DNA of 44,457 bases from Alphaproteobacteria bacterium (GTDB lineage Bacteria; Pseudomonadota; Alphaproteobacteria; Rs-D84): assembly GCA_017443235.1 (NCBI GenBank), contig JAFSOV010000008.1:1-44457 (forward strand). Reading direction: 5' to 3'. Shown piece after piece: positions 4,887-44,457 of the stretch. The translations under genes and the position numbers were made by a program. Numbering within the stretch: position 1 is the first letter of the stretch; each line of letters begins with the position of its first letter. The notes beneath the pieces are model-generated. The model was not told where the DNA came from. It worked only from the letters and a program-made list of their open reading frames with translations, and did not search any database.

Positions 4887-4899
4887 TAGTGGTTAGTGG
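4887..4899 (+). repeat. TTAGTGGTTAGTG short intergenic repeat
   Basis: This 13-mer, or its inverse CACTAACCACTAA, recurs between genes at about 5381-5420 (several tandem copies), 11706, 21790, 36733, 36781, 37370 and 39477. It is always just outside a gene or terminator, never inside a gene that I can see. Confidence 0.75.
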
Positions 4900-4917: not shown

Positions 4918-4946
4918 TTGCAAACTTGCCGATTATCGGTTATAAT
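4918..4946 (+). promoter_or_regulatory. Promoter of structured RNA copy 1
   Basis: TTGCAA (4918-4923), a 17-base spacer and a perfect TATAAT (4941-4946). The predicted start near 4952 coincides with the first base of the 5' hairpin of the RNA. The same TTGCAA-N17-TATAAT arrangement stands before RNA copy 2. Confidence 0.8.
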
Positions 4947-4951
4947 CTTTT

Positions 4952-5107
4952 CGCATCGGTTGACGACCGGTGCGGGGTCTAGAAAATCCCTAACGTTAAA
5001 AACTCCACCTTTTGGTTGGAGGGTTGCGAATATGTTGAATAAGCAACACTGTTTTACGTTACAGTTTTCTAGCCTCCAACCGTCAAATGTCTTGACGGTA
5101 TTTTTAT
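4952..5107 (+). ncRNA. Structured attenuator-like RNA, copy 1
   Basis: Elements in order: 5' hairpin 4952-4974; outer closing stem CTAGAAAA (4979-4986) with TTTTCTAG (5065-5072); inner stem TAACGT/AAAA (4991-5001) with TTTT/ACGTTA (5052-5061); segment A CTCCACC (5003-5009); segment B GGTTGGAGG (5014-5022); hairpin GTTGC/GCAAC (5023-5047) with loop GAATATGTTGAATAA; segment A' CCTCCAACC (5073-5081); terminator CCGTCAA/TTGACGG (5080-5098) plus T-run. B is partly complementary to A and perfectly to A', and the end of A' is the start of the terminator stem. Next gene: HTH protein at 5128. Compensatory differences from copies 2, 3 and 4 support the structure. Confidence 0.85.
5080..5107 (+). terminator. 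Intrinsic terminator of RNA copy 1
   Basis: CCGTCAA-atgtc-TTGACGG followed by TATTTTTAT. It lies between the RNA and the HTH gene, so the gene is expressed only by read-through or not from this promoter. Its first two bases are shared with segment A'. Confidence 0.85.
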
Positions 5108-5127: not shown

Positions 5128-5355
5128 ATGGTTACATTGGTTGATTCAAAATATTTTGCGCGCGCGTTGCGCAATGCACGGCGGCATAATTGCCTGGGGG
5201 CAGATGACGTCGCAAAGATGTTTTCAATATCTGTGCGGCAATTACATAAATATGAACAGGGTAAAGAAATAATCCCGGACAATATTTTACAATCTGTATT
5301 TTATCATGGATTTTGCCTGTTGCGATGTCGCCGCGTACCCCCAAAACACAAATAG
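5128..5355 (+). CDS. Small XRE-like HTH protein
   Basis: A 75-residue protein with a helix-turn-helix pattern of the XRE/Cro kind: DVAKMFSISVRQLHKYEQG around residues 27-45, where VAKMFSIS would be the first helix and turn and VRQLHKYEQ the recognition helix. About half of its residues match the 72-residue protein at 37125-37343, including the YFxxxLRxARR start and the FYxGFCLxRC end. The start is set by GGAGG at 5117-5121, seven bases before ATG. It follows structured RNA copy 1 and its terminator, so its expression is probably controlled by attenuation. Likely a small DNA-binding regulator; targets unknown. A bidirectional terminator follows directly. Confidence 0.85.
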   Translation: MVTLVDSKYFARALRNARRHNCLGADDVAKMFSISVRQLHKYEQGKEIIPDNILQSVFYHGFCLLRCRRVPPKHK

Positions 5356-5378: not shown

Positions 5379-5421
5379 CACACTAACCACTAACCACTAA
5401 CACTCGCCACTAACCACTATG

Positions 5422-36735: not shown

Positions 36736-36856
36736 TGGTTAGTCCGTCACGACCGCGGCGCGGTCATGCCGCGACGAGTGTTAGTGGTTAGTGACAAGTC
36801 CCCTTCTTATGAAGAAGGGGAGGGCCACCAGCGGTGGCGGGGTAGTTGCAAAACGG
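36736..36856. repeat. Intergenic repeats before RNA copy 2
   Basis: Contains two TTAGTGGTTAGT repeats (about 36733 and 36781), a small palindrome GACCGCGGCGCGGTC, and an inverse copy of the GCCACCGC/GGTGGC element (36814-36838) with its CCCTTC/GAAGGG outer arms. A diverged relative lies at about 37053-37100, on the other side of the RNA. No gene seen. Confidence 0.75.
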
Positions 36857-36891: not shown

Positions 36892-37050
36892 GCACGGGTG
36901 ACACCGTTGCGGGGTCCTGAAAAGCCCTATAACATAGAAAAAACTCCACCATTGGTTGGAGGGTTGCGAATATATTGAATAAGCGACACTGTTTCTATGT
37001 TACAGTTTTCAGGCCTCCAACCGTCAACCTGTCATTGACGGTATTTTTAT
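36892..37050 (+). ncRNA. Structured attenuator-like RNA, copy 2
   Basis: Same order as copy 1. 5' hairpin GCACGG/CCGTTGC (36892-36910); outer stem CCTGAAAA (36916-36923) with TTTTCAGG (37006-37013); inner stem TAACATAGAAA (36930-36940) with TTTCTATGTTA (36992-37002), 11 perfect pairs; A CTCCACC (36944-36950); B GGTTGGAGG (36954-36962); hairpin GTTGC/GCGAC with loop GAATATATTGAATAA; A' CCTCCAACC (37014-37022); terminator CCGTCAA/TTGACGG (37021-37041). The outer and inner stems differ from copy 1 on both strands, so pairing is preserved by double changes. The HTH gene at 37125 follows. Confidence 0.87.
37021..37050 (+). terminator. Intrinsic terminator of RNA copy 2
   Basis: CCGTCAA-cctgtca-TTGACGG then TATTTTTATT. 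Same stem as in copy 1 but a different loop. Its first two bases belong to A'. Confidence 0.85.
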
Positions 37051-37124
37051 TCCCCTTCGGTTTTGCTGAAGGGGGGGGACCGGCGGAGCCGGTGGGGTAG
37101 ATATAACAGCAAAGGAGGTAAAAA

Positions 37125-37343
37125 ATGGTAGTACTAATCGATGCAAAATACTTTGGTTCAATATTGCGAAAGGCAAGACGCGAAAACAAAATGAACACAA
37201 AAGATGTGGCAAAAATGTTTGGTGTGCGACGGCGTGAATTGCTACAGTACGAACACGGAACAAAGCCGATTTCAGAAAGTTTATTGATGTCTTTATTTTA
37301 CTATGGATTTTGTTTAAAACGTTGTAAAAAAAATTGTAATTGA
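37125..37343 (+). CDS. Small XRE-like HTH protein, paralogue of 5128-5355
   Basis: 72 residues. HTH pattern DVAKMFGVRRRELLQYEHG at about 27-45; N-terminal YFGSILRKARRENK and C-terminal FYYGFCLKRCKK shared with the paralogue. The basic, Cys-ending tail (RCKKNCN) is unusual for a DNA-binding protein. AAAGGAGG lies eight bases before ATG. RNA copy 2 and its terminator stand about 75 bases upstream, with a GAAGGGG/GGTGGGGTAG repeat relative in between. A terminator follows at 37344. Confidence 0.85.
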   Translation: MVVLIDAKYFGSILRKARRENKMNTKDVAKMFGVRRRELLQYEHGTKPISESLLMSLFYYGFCLKRCKKNCN

Positions 37344-37368: not shown

Positions 37369-37397
37369 CACTAACCACTTACACTATCCACTAATGA

Positions 37398-37850: not shown

Positions 37851-38897
37851 TTAATCGTTATTTACGTGTTTTTTAATCCATGCATAGTGACGCAGGAATT
37901 CCGTTCCGGGTCCCGCCGGATAACCCATATGTTTTGCACCGTCCGGCACATCGCGGAAAACACCGCTATTTGCGCCAACCTCGGCATCATTTCCAATTTT
38001 AACCCCGTTTGCAATGCCCACGTGTCCGGCCAATAATGCACGGTCACCAATCTTGACCCCACCGGCAATACCAACACCGGACGCCAAAAAACATTCGCGC
38101 CCAATAACCACCCCATGCGCAATTTGGCACAGGTTGTCAATCTTGGTTCCGTCGCCAATCATTGTATCGGTTAATGTCCCACGATCGATACAGGAATTTG
38201 CGCCCACCGACACGCGGTCACCCAACACAACGCGCCCAACGTGTGGAATAAATACATTGTGGCCGTCTTGACGGGTATAACCAAACCCATCTTTACCAAT
38301 AGATGCGCCGTTGTGAATGACGCAATCCGCGCCAATGGTCGCGTTTTCAATATGTGCGCCCGAATGAATAACCGTGCCGCGCCCAATTGTGACATTGCGC
38401 CCGATATACACATTTGGGTATATCTTGACATCGGGTTCAATTACCGTGCCACGTTCAATGGTTGCAAATTGCCCGACATAGACGCTGCGCCGATTGCGAA
38501 AAAATACGCCACGTTCGATATGTGCGTCCGGTGATATGCCACGGCGTGGCGGTTCGCGATAAATCTCGCCCAGAACCTTAACGATTTCGCCGCGGGGACT
38601 GGCACACACCAGAAGTGTTGCACCCGCGGGCGCGTGGGATACCATTTCCGGCTGAACCAAGATTACCGACGCGCGCGTATTTTCCAAAACGGATACCGGC
38701 AATATCTTGAATGCATTGCTGTTTTGTTCGGTGGAATAGAACGCAATATCACCGGGGCGTGCATCTGCGATTGGTGAAACCCCCTTTACAATCGTATTCG
38801 CGTTTCCACGCAGTTCCAGGCCAAATTTTTTGGCCAATTCACCGGCGGTCATTTTGACCGCTTTTGGTTTTAATAAAAAATCAATTATTTTCGACAT
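37851..38897 (-). CDS. lpxD: UDP-3-O-(3-hydroxyacyl)glucosamine N-acyltransferase LpxD
   Basis: 348 residues from ATG 38897 ([16 protein letters not shown]); an upstream ATG at 38945 would extend through the -10 box. N-terminal uridine-binding domain (about 15-105), then a left-handed beta helix of hexapeptide repeats ([26 protein letters not shown] ...) with the catalytic-His region [18 protein letters not shown], and a C-terminal helix. It adds the N-linked acyl chain in lipid A synthesis. The operon order skp-lpxD-fabZ is conserved, but an RNA/HTH cassette has been inserted after skp. Confidence 0.96.
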
Positions 38898-38903
38898 ATC
38901 GGC

Positions 38904-38909
38904 ATTATA
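38904..38909 (-). promoter_or_regulatory. -10 box abutting the lpxD start codon
   Basis: TATAAT on the minus strand, six bases before the ATG at 38897. The -35 region is only T-rich. It predicts a leaderless lpxD transcript. A promoter here would fit separation of lpxD from skp by the inserted cassette. Confidence 0.55.
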
Positions 38910-38951
38910 GCGTAAAAAAAACAAAAGGAAAGGGGAAATTGGCAAACGACT

Positions 38952-39188
38952 TTATTTGTAGTCTTCATAATCTGATACGCGCAATTTATACAACGTGCGC
39001 CCTGTGGTGCACATAAACATAATAAGTTGGTACACGGTCGGTTTTATTTCACCAGATTTTAATTTATAAAGATGTTCAGGGGTTAAATTAAATATATCAC
39101 TTAAAACCCATGTGGGACAATTTGATTCTTTAATAATGTCACAAATTTCACGCCCCAGTGCCACATTTCTTTGTTGCAATTCTGTCAT
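38952..39188 (-). CDS. Small HTH protein behind RNA copy 4
   Basis: 78 residues from ATG 39188, seven bases after AAAGGA; longer in-frame starts lie inside the RNA and its terminator. The pattern WVLSDIFNLTPEHLYKLKSGEIKPT (about 27-51) is an XRE-like HTH, aligning with VAKMFSISVRQLHKYEQG of the other two. The rest differs, so it is a distant relative. It lies between skp and lpxD on the same strand, directly downstream of RNA copy 4. Confidence 0.82.
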   Translation of the reverse strand: MTELQQRNVALGREICDIIKESNCPTWVLSDIFNLTPEHLYKLKSGEIKPTVYQLIMFMCTTGRTLYKLRVSDYEDYK

Positions 39189-39204
39189 TTTGATTTTCCT
39201 TTGG

Positions 39205-39384
39205 TAAAAAAAGAAAACCATCTTTGAAAATTCAAGGATGGCAGGAGGGTAAGAACTACCTAAACTAAATAGTACGGTGTATTCTTTATATTCCACCGAC
39301 CTCCTGCCGGTGGCAGAAGGTTTAACGTCCGCGCAGACGAGTTTAGGATGGTTCTTACACCACCAGTATGGCAACCGCCACACC
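39205..39384 (-). ncRNA. Structured attenuator-like RNA, copy 4
   Basis: Minus strand. 5' hairpin TGGC/GCCA; outer stem GTAAGAA (39358-39352) with TTCTTAC (39255-39249); inner stem CCTAAAC (39347-39341) with GTTTAGG (39265-39259); extra hairpin CGTC/GACG (39339-39326); A CCTTCTGCC (39320-39312); B GGCAGGAGG (39308-39300); hairpin CGGTG/CACCG (39298-39275) with loop GAATATAAAGAATA; A' CCTCCTGCC (39248-39240); terminator CCATC/GATGG (39241-39218) with T-run. A, B and A' are all changed relative to the other copies, yet B still pairs nine for nine with A' and, with one G-U, with A. Downstream gene: HTH at 38952-39188. Confidence 0.85.
39206..39241 (-). terminator. Intrinsic terminator of RNA copy 4
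   Basis: CCATCCTTGA...TCAAAGATGG followed by TTTTCTTTTTT on the minus strand. Its stem sequence is unrelated to that of copies 1 and 2, but it too starts with the last CC of segment A'. Confidence 0.82.
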
Positions 39385-39390
39385 ACACAC

Positions 39391-39419
39391 ATTATAAATG
39401 CATAATCTATGATTTTCAA
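39391..39419 (-). promoter_or_regulatory. Promoter of structured RNA copy 4
   Basis: Minus strand TTGAAA (39419-39414), 17 bases, TATAAT (39396-39391). Predicted start about 39384. Confidence 0.8.
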
Positions 39420-39449
39420 TATATAAAATATGTTGGAATTTGCGAATAC

Positions 39450-39477
39450 AAAAACGGATGCGAATGCATCCGTTTTT
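39450..39477. terminator. Terminator after skp
   Basis: AAAAACGGATGC-gaat-GCATCCGTTTTT, perfect 12-pair hairpin with A/T tails. It isolates skp from the RNA/HTH cassette. CACTAACCACTTACACT repeats lie beside it. Confidence 0.85.
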
Positions 39478-39510
39478 ACTAACCACTTACACTATCCACT
39501 GACACTAATG

Positions 39511-40173
39511 TTAAAAACCTTTTGGTGTTTCCATTTTCACAGAAGAAACTTTTTTATTCAAAGATTTAATAACATCGTCTGTGATATCCAAATTTGCAAC
39601 ATTTGCACCCGTGCGTGCGAAACGCCCATCAATAACCAAAGACAAATTCTTTTTTGTGATGATTGCTTCGATAATCGGGTCTAAATGATTTTCTTGGATT
39701 TTCGCCAAAGCACGTTGGAAAGATGCATCAATAGATTGCGCACGTTCCGTCAAATCACGTTGCAATTTTGTGACCTTGCCTTGGTATTCAACAACGCGGC
39801 GTTGCAAAGCCTCACGCGAAAGCACATCTTGGGATTTTTCGATTTCGGCCTTTTCTTTTTCCAACGCCTTTTGCTGTTTTTCTAATTCACTGCGCAGTTT
39901 GTTTTCATAGTTTTCTTTTTGTTTGCGCAAATCTTGCAAAGCGTTTGCATCCGATTGAATCGCATCCATACGAACAACGGCGATACGCAAATCTGCGCCA
40001 CTGGCGGCATCAGATGACACTTCGCTTATTGCGGTATCTGCACTAATGGTTTTATCACTGCAACCGCGCAGGGCAAAAATGCCGACCAATGCAACCGCAA
40101 TCACGACCGCGGCAACAATGCCGTATTTAACATAGTTTGTTGTTGGTTTATTTGTCTTTTTTGTTTCTACCAT
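39511..40173 (-). CDS. Skp/OmpH-family periplasmic chaperone, membrane-anchored
   Basis: 220 residues from ATG 40173 (AAAAGGA seven bases upstream; ATG 40182 overlaps that site). Skp binds unfolded outer-membrane proteins. Residues about 60-215 fit the family: a short strand (LRIAVVRMDAIQSDANAL), a long coiled coil (KQKENYENKLRSELEKQQKALE... to about 150) and a C-terminal strand pair (NLSLVIDGRFARTGANVANLDITDDVI). The N-terminus is a longer segment with helix YGIVAAVVIAVALVGIFALRG followed by Cys; it may be an uncleaved anchor or an atypical lipobox (ALRGC). It is encoded upstream of lpxD, as usual. Confidence 0.87.
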   Translation of the reverse strand: MVETKKTNKPTTNYVKYGIVAAVVIAVALVGIFALRGCSDKTISADTAISEVSSDAASGADLRIAVVRMDAIQSDANALQDLRKQKENYENKLRSELEKQQKALEKEKAEIEKSQDVLSREALQRRVVEYQGKVTKLQRDLTERAQSIDASFQRALAKIQENHLDPIIEAIITKKNLSLVIDGRFARTGANVANLDITDDVIKSLNKKVSSVKMETPKGF

Positions 40174-40254
40174 GGTTTCCATCCTTTTGTTTTTTTGTTG
40201 ACGGGTTCACTATAGCAATAATTTTTATAAAATAAAAGGGAAAGTTATCGATTT

Positions 40255-43906: not shown

Positions 43907-43912
43907 AATTTT

Positions 43913-44100
43913 GTCGGTGGGTGTTCCACCGATGGGGTGTAACGACCCGTTTGACGAAGCCAAATTTTACTTGGCAAAACTCCAACCTAAGTGCGGTTGG
44001 AGGGATGTGAATAATATGGGCGTGTCCCATAAAATAAGCACACAATTTCGTCAAATTGTCGTTAACCTCCAACCACTTGAAAATTTTTCGGTGGTTTTTT
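43913..44100 (+). ncRNA. Structured attenuator-like RNA, copy 3
   Basis: 5' hairpin CGGTGG/CCACCG (43915-43931); outer stem AACGAC (43941-43946) with GTCGTT (44058-44063); inner stem TTTGACGAA (43950-43958) with TTCGTCAAA (44047-44055); extra hairpin GCCAA/TTGGC (43959-43975); A CTCCAACC (43980-43987); B GGTTGGAGG (43995-44003); hairpin TGTG/CACA, whose internal loop GAATA/AATAAG is extended by ATGGG-cgtgt-CCCAT; A' CCTCCAACC (44066-44074); terminator AACCAC/GTGGTT (44071-44096) with T-run. The stems share no sequence with copies 1 and 2 but pair fully. Unlike the others it precedes a secreted-protein gene (44215). Confidence 0.83.
44071..44100 (+). terminator. Intrinsic terminator of RNA copy 3
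   Basis: AACCAC ... GTGGTTTTTTA hairpin. It begins with the last four bases of A'. A further long inverted repeat, TTATTTGTTTTTGC/GCAAAAAACAAATAA, follows at 44099-44130. Confidence 0.75.
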
Positions 44101-44214: not shown

Positions 44215-44457
44215 ATGAAACAGGCATTATTCATCGGCGCAATCGCATCGGTTTTAACATTAAACGCATTTGCAGACCCGGTAACCGTGACCACCCAGGA
44301 TTATGTGGATACGGCGGACGCATTGAAACAGAACAAAATACCCGTCACTGGCACAAACAGTGCAACACCGGGCGATACAGTTGTCACATACACATCCACC
44401 GCCGGAACAATCGGTGAAAGGGGAATCTTAAGCGATTATGATAATTATGATAGCACA
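44215..44457 (+). CDS. Secreted protein, paralogue of 11786-12424 (partial)
   Basis: Only the first 81 residues are in the window; the gene runs off the right edge. AAAGGAGG seven bases before the ATG is the best ribosome site in the window. Signal peptide KQALFIGAIASVLTLNAFA; the mature start DPVTVTTQDYVDTADALKQNKI matches VTSRDYVDAQDALKQDKI of the protein at 11786-12424. The next stretch is Thr/Gly-rich, suggesting a surface protein. Its expression is probably controlled by RNA copy 3, whose terminator is about 115 bases upstream. Confidence 0.85.
   Translation, partial: MKQALFIGAIASVLTLNAFADPVTVTTQDYVDTADALKQNKIPVTGTNSATPGDTVVTYTSTAGTIGERGILSDYDNYDST

Follow-up and report, generated by a model that had tools for sequence, protein, structure and literature searches.

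C4 represents a kind of small RNA with which phages such as P1 hold their own antirepressor genes silent. In the sequence record of phage P1, C4 is annotated within the order a1, b1, C4, a2, b2, and icd, and a search of this locus against Rfam returned C4 (RF01695), c4-a1b1 (RF03163), and a weak, sub-threshold isrK match in the leader. The P4 CI RNA and IsrK combine a processed RNA, mutually exclusive folds, and leader termination or read-through (PMC4825925). The family sRNA-Xcc1 (RF02221) has been found in integron cassettes upstream of symE (PMC12444791); in cmscan with Rfam 15 it carries no clan. Here, we compare these systems with an RNA element present in four copies in a 44,457-nt stretch of alphaproteobacterial DNA (the window), the minus strand of which also carries a bacterial 16S rRNA gene fragment truncated by the contig end (positions 1–268).

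Architecture of the four copies

A first-pass annotation of the window had proposed four copies of one structured regulatory RNA with a common architecture, and inspection of the sequence located all the parts that it listed in each of the four copies. In copy 1 (plus strand), a -10-like TATAAT (4941–4946) lies ~6 nt 5' of the element, which opens with a 5' hairpin (4953–4973) and a GGGG[a1]CCC hairpin ending at 4990, where a1 is CTAGAAAA (4979–4986); these two hairpins are arranged like c4-a1b1 of phage P1. Next come b1 (4992–5001), recognized from the sequence and a family-wide complementarity test as the complement of b', and A (5003–5009), the anti-P1 element and an imperfect complement of B; statistics on the A:B hairpin that counted G-U pairs had too much noise to serve as proof. 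The C4/sRNA-Xcc1-like core (5014–5081), delimited by a sub-threshold RF02221 match, a score of 96.4 bits with the covariance model R1 (see below), and covariation, consists of B (5014–5022), the P2 hairpin with the motif GAAUA..GAAUAAG, the P3 hairpin (5048–5065) with b' in its loop, a' (5065–5072), and A' (5073–5081). An intrinsic terminator (5079–5105) has 3 nt in common with A', and the gene that follows (5128–5355, plus strand) encodes an XRE-like HTH protein of 75 aa. The P2 loop was also considered as the site of a conserved leader peptide (AUG/UUG AAU AAG), but this candidate was rejected by eye, as it was missing in copy 3, for example, and the frames differed.

Copy 2 (36892–37050, plus strand) was defined by sequence, fold, terminator, and R1 match. 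Its leader contains a1 (36916–36923), b1 (36930–36940), and A (36944–36950), its core B (36954–36962), P3 (36988–37006), a' (37006–37013), and A' (37014–37022), and its terminator (37020–37048) precedes a plus-strand gene for a 72-aa XRE-like HTH protein (37125–37343). Copy 3, on the minus strand, is inserted between skp (OmpH-like) and lpxD. Sequence, fold, and R1 match place it at 39205–39388, so that its start lies near 39388 rather than at 39384 as first annotated. The parts of this copy are a1 (39358–39351), b1 (39347–39340), and A (39320–39312) in the leader, B (39308–39300), b' (39266–39259), a' (39256–39249), and A' (39248–39240) in the core, and a terminator at 39242–39212. Its gene (38952–39188, minus strand) encodes a small protein of 78 aa that is HTH-like by eye and has no Pfam match. 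Copy 4 (43912–44100, plus strand), defined by the same four kinds of evidence as copy 2, carries an extra hairpin (43959–43975) in its leader between b1 (43950–43958) and A (43980–43987), with a1 at 43940–43946. Its core comprises B (43995–44003), P3 (44042–44059), a' (44058–44064), and A' (44066–44074), followed by a terminator (44071–44100) and a plus-strand gene for an exported protein with a signal-peptide-like start (44215–44457), which is cut by the contig end.

Conservation and covariation of the fold

MFE folds of every window copy contained the two-part closing stem of the first-pass annotation, the inner hairpins, and the terminator, with folding z-scores of -4.2 to -7.0 relative to dinucleotide shuffles. 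The halves of this stem, however, are independent segments, a1:a' and b1:b', and both pairings compete with other conserved helices. Similarly, the segment A' is present as annotated, but it serves as the strand that pairs with B, on the 3' side of a conserved helix.

For the core, a covariance model (R1) was built from 14 own-genome copies first located by BLAST; in the window, it gave exactly four strong matches (65–96 bits), corresponding to the four copies. Across 63 R1 matches, 94.3% of cells were paired compared with 73.8% in shuffles, and both sides varied in 15 of 18 pairs. The covariation score of these matches was 0.557, whereas slid structures and shuffles reached no more than 0.160 and 0.185, respectively; the margin is large, although the alignment had been fitted to the model and contains a few antisense matches that are palindromic, so that it favours the structure. 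Many further copies and significant covariation thus agree with the prediction of a conserved structured regulatory RNA.

Relationship to sRNA-Xcc1 and phage C4

At gathering thresholds, Rfam returned only rRNA and tRNA in the window and no match to the element. With permissive settings, RF02221 matched the 3' part of several own-genome copies over the whole model at 28–36.5 bits. Its best own-genome score was 43 bits (E-values down to 1e-6 per genome), below the 53-bit gathering cut-off, and one same-genus relative scored 57.8 bits, above it. Of 59 relatives, 27 had an RF02221 match, whereas 14 control genomes had none; throughout the phylum (Pseudomonadota), 58 of 398 genomes had a match, with 39 above the cut-off. 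In the reciprocal search, R1 matched canonical RF02221 loci with E-values down to 3e-5, and RNAalifold recovered the RF02221 helices from the own-genome copies alone. Among relatives of the window genome, RF01695 and RF03163 gave nothing above cut-off, and sub-threshold RF03163 matches also occurred in 9 of 14 controls.

Reading the flanks of canonical RF02221 loci revealed an upstream a1-b1 leader outside the span of the Rfam model. On the 5' side, GGGG[a1]CCC is followed by b1, the two segments being complements of a' (the linker) and b' (the loop of the second hairpin), respectively; on the 3' side, a and b sequences often recur right before the start codon, as exemplified by CCGAAAAGGAGCAACAAGACCATG at locus L063. 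Exact complementarity of at least 7 nt was detected in 30 canonical loci for a1 (26 loci), b1 (24), a2 (13), and b2 (16), with control fractions of 18%, 14%, 9%, and 8%, respectively. At the same length threshold, 69 distinct viral-contig loci selected by the RF02221 core motif included 34 with a2 (control 4.8%) and 37 with b2 (control 7.6%). Antirepressor families (AntA, KilA-N, Rha, P22_AR_N, Bro-N, and ORF6N) were identified in all 10 proteins scanned downstream of viral RF02221 loci. By this architecture, which is the P1 layout (a1-b1, core, and a2-b2), and by this context of viral antirepressor genes, sRNA-Xcc1 is C4-type, and RF02221 appears to belong with the C4 clan. None of the papers in the limited collection that was searched says so.

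Two further observations concern these loci. At locus L043, a c4-2 RNA match (RF02944; 2890–2958, minus strand; 34.8 bits, below the cut-off) lies ~1.3 kb from an RF02221 match. In canonical loci and in P1, a small hairpin of the GCGGaaaCCGC type, which would compete with the leader terminator, adjoins b1 (L063, upstream of 1501; L069, 3250–3320), suggesting that binding of C4 to b1 could promote leader termination.

It is near certain that the window copies belong to the C4/sRNA-Xcc1 kind. The first-pass annotation had described the RNA as apparently new and of no known class and had named a match to an existing Rfam family as grounds for its refutation; with a core that matches RF02221 and the layout of phage P1 c4, this claim falls. 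Rather than a new class, this well-supported RNA family is a novel variant of the phage C4/sRNA-Xcc1 kind, and a heavily amplified one.

Features of the window-type variant

In the core of the window type, a closing helix is combined with two hairpins, the second of which holds b' in its loop, and a' forms the linker. Complementarity of at least 7 nt was found in 49 (a1) and 43 (b1) of 57 window-type elements, and 10,000 permutations reached maxima of 17 and 21, respectively, none as high as observed. At the downstream gene, b2 at the ribosome site was detected in 3 of the 57 elements, about the control level, and a2-like matches in 9, slightly more than in the control (permutation mean of 3.4). 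No phage antirepressor was found downstream of window-type elements; HTH-like, exported, or unknown proteins are encoded there instead.

The 5' arm of the intrinsic terminator overlapped A' by 2–5 nt in all of the first 14 own-genome copies and in 14 of 20 copies from the genus or order. This overlap was seen at 0 of 30 canonical loci, 19 of which carry a leader terminator instead. Two copies appear to be decaying: one has lost its terminator (L120), and the other has a short leader in which b1 is not clear (L071).

Distribution and mobility

The R1 search detected about 26 sense-strand copies in the window's own genome (985 kb, about 1 Mb) and matches in 31 of 36 relatives, with a highest number of 60 (G010) and 48 in another genome (G019). 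At least 115 stretches from named genomes contain the window-type motif, its hosts being ruminant and poultry gut Alphaproteobacteria, Candidatus Enterousia, and MAGs labelled Rickettsiales; viral contigs with the motif numbered only three.

Copy 3 and its small gene form a cassette inside the conserved skp-lpxD pair (window 37854–40182). In a comparison of 15 same-genus lpxD neighbourhoods, elements were present in that of the window alone and absent from the other 14, and skp lies directly before lpxD in several relatives, one of them being the relative with the most similar lpxD (84% identity). Additionally, the 11-mer AGTGGTTAGTG occurs 57 times in the genome (reversed control, 0), with window sites at 4888–4898, 5381–5418, 36783–36793, and 37369–37379 and also at 1126 and 21792. 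At least four RNA-gene cassettes, each about 500 bp, have AGTGGTTAGTG on the 5' side and its reverse complement on the 3' side, and this 11-mer may mark the termini of a mobile unit. Based on the skp-lpxD insertion and these inverted flanks, the RNA and the gene seem to move as one unit. An intergenic repeat consisting of CCCCTTC..GAAGGGG and then GGACC/GGTGGGGTAG was observed at 36800–36850 and 37050–37115 in the window and next to further copies of the RNA (L003, L005, L006, and L117).

Proposed mechanism and alternatives

We propose, with a probability of roughly 0.6, that each copy is a C4-type element rebuilt as a cis-acting transcription attenuator of the next gene, keeping that gene off by default. 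Promoter activity, the default state, the switching, and an RNase P cut at the 5' end of B are what we infer within this proposal. Transcription would begin 5' of the 5' hairpin, and in the nascent RNA, a1 and b1 would pair with a' and b' while A holds B. Helix B:A' would thereby be blocked, and the terminator, with 3–5 nt in common with A', would fold, releasing an RNA of 155–190 nt and leaving the gene off. If the leader refolded so that a1 sat in its own GGGG/CCC hairpin, or were occupied by another RNA or a protein, this sequestration would allow the C4 core with helix B:A' to form, to take the terminator bases, and to permit read-through.

Partition functions were calculated for 47 elements, with pseudoknots and kinetics ignored. 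In the full transcript, a1:a' and b1:b' were predicted to form, and the probabilities of helix B:A' and the terminator were 0.00 and 0.88, respectively; these values became 0.81 and 0.44 when a1, b1, and A were blocked. Given this shift, the leader looks like the controlling part of the attenuator. Blocking a1 and b1 alone caused a shift in just 8 of the 47 elements, meaning that A must be freed too and therefore matters in most copies. The small shift with a1 and b1 alone speaks against the proposal, as do the own-genome copy without a terminator (L120) and the slight excess of a2-like matches, which b2 does not show.

The element could instead be a trans-acting antisense sRNA as in P1: once the core has been processed by RNase P, its a' and b' would bind other mRNAs, the terminator would simply mark where the sRNA gene stops, and the neighbouring gene would be incidental or co-mobilised. 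We regard this as rather unlikely. Gene arrangement argues against it, as 53 of the 57 elements have a same-strand ORF, equipped with an SD-like sequence, at a median of 24 nt past the T-run, a gap that leaves most ORFs without room for a separate promoter. The description of C4 and sRNA-Xcc1 as small RNAs (PMC2996969; PMC5320573) and the GG at the start of B in 52 of 57 elements, as at C4 RNase P sites, would suit trans action, as would the isolated core, which forms helix B:A' with a mean probability of 0.79 (terminator, 0.56; 47 elements). The pairing partners, however, point to the same transcript. In 24 of 27 own-genome copies, no other partner was as good as the own leader, a search of the genome with exact patterns from copies 2–4 returned no bipartite a..b site apart from that leader and the a'/b' antisense, and the near-control levels of a2/b2 at the own gene fit poorly with trans action. 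Such a private complementary site is an argument for cis action, alongside which degenerate trans targets could exist.

Another alternative, that the element is a riboswitch-like leader with the conserved GAAUA..GAAUAAG hairpin as the sensor of a ligand or protein and the C4 ancestry as a mere scaffold, is improbable: the GAAUA-type loop is the most conserved sequence and is common to sRNA-Xcc1, but it is also kept in phage copies before antirepressors, where antisense pairing is the expected control, and the genes downstream of window-type elements have no common pathway. That the copies are decaying prophage-immunity remnants without present function, as the phage association of the core family and the strain-specific insertion of RNA plus gene within a core operon might suggest, is likewise improbable in view of the strong covariation of three helices and of the two long-range pairings, the many species with dozens of intact copies per genome, the rarity of the window-type motif on viral contigs, and the terminators kept in 14 of 14 copies.

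If the attenuator reading is true, the output of the system has changed, with transcription attenuation replacing the a2/b2 translation block. As a tentative extension, a phage immunity RNA may have become, in host-associated Alphaproteobacteria, a mobile family of attenuators spread over the whole genome, with about 26–60 per 1-Mb genome. Each would be privately addressed, recognising its own leader only, and the family would set the expression of small proteins that bind DNA or are exposed on the surface, perhaps as heritable or phase-like on/off states. The present data tie sRNA-Xcc1, an orphan family that published work treats as an sRNA of virulence or of integrons, to the control of phage antirepressors, a link that gives it a testable function. 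They also place a massively amplified lysogeny-decision RNA on reduced bacterial chromosomes, where few regulators are expected.

Comparison with known systems

The window-type element shares with C4 of phages P1 and P7 (RF01695 and RF03163) the order of promoter, 5' hairpin, a1 hairpin, b1, and core, as well as a core composed of P1, P2, and P3 with b' in the P3 loop, a' as linker, and GG at its 5' end. It differs from C4 in an unlike P2 hairpin, in the lack of a2/b2, and in the position of the terminator, which is in the leader in P1 and 3' of the core in the window type. With sRNA-Xcc1, it shares the three-helix core of helix B:A', the GAAUA hairpin, and the small hairpin (P3), the loop motif AAUA..GAAUA, b' in the P3 loop, and the a' linker. 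The differences from sRNA-Xcc1 are that the RF02221 scores of the window copies stay under the cut-off, that a2/b2 are missing, that the terminator overlaps A', and that the copies precede chromosomal genes for HTH-like or exported proteins, in contrast to the integron cassettes upstream of symE (PMC12444791). The P4 CI RNA and Salmonella IsrK (RF01394) resemble the proposed switch in having two exclusive folds, a short terminated RNA versus a read-through mRNA, and a leader complementary to the processed RNA (PMC4825925). This comparison was made by published description and part order, with homology limited to the sub-threshold isrK match of the P1 leader, and it makes these two RNAs working precedents for the switch proposed for the window type.
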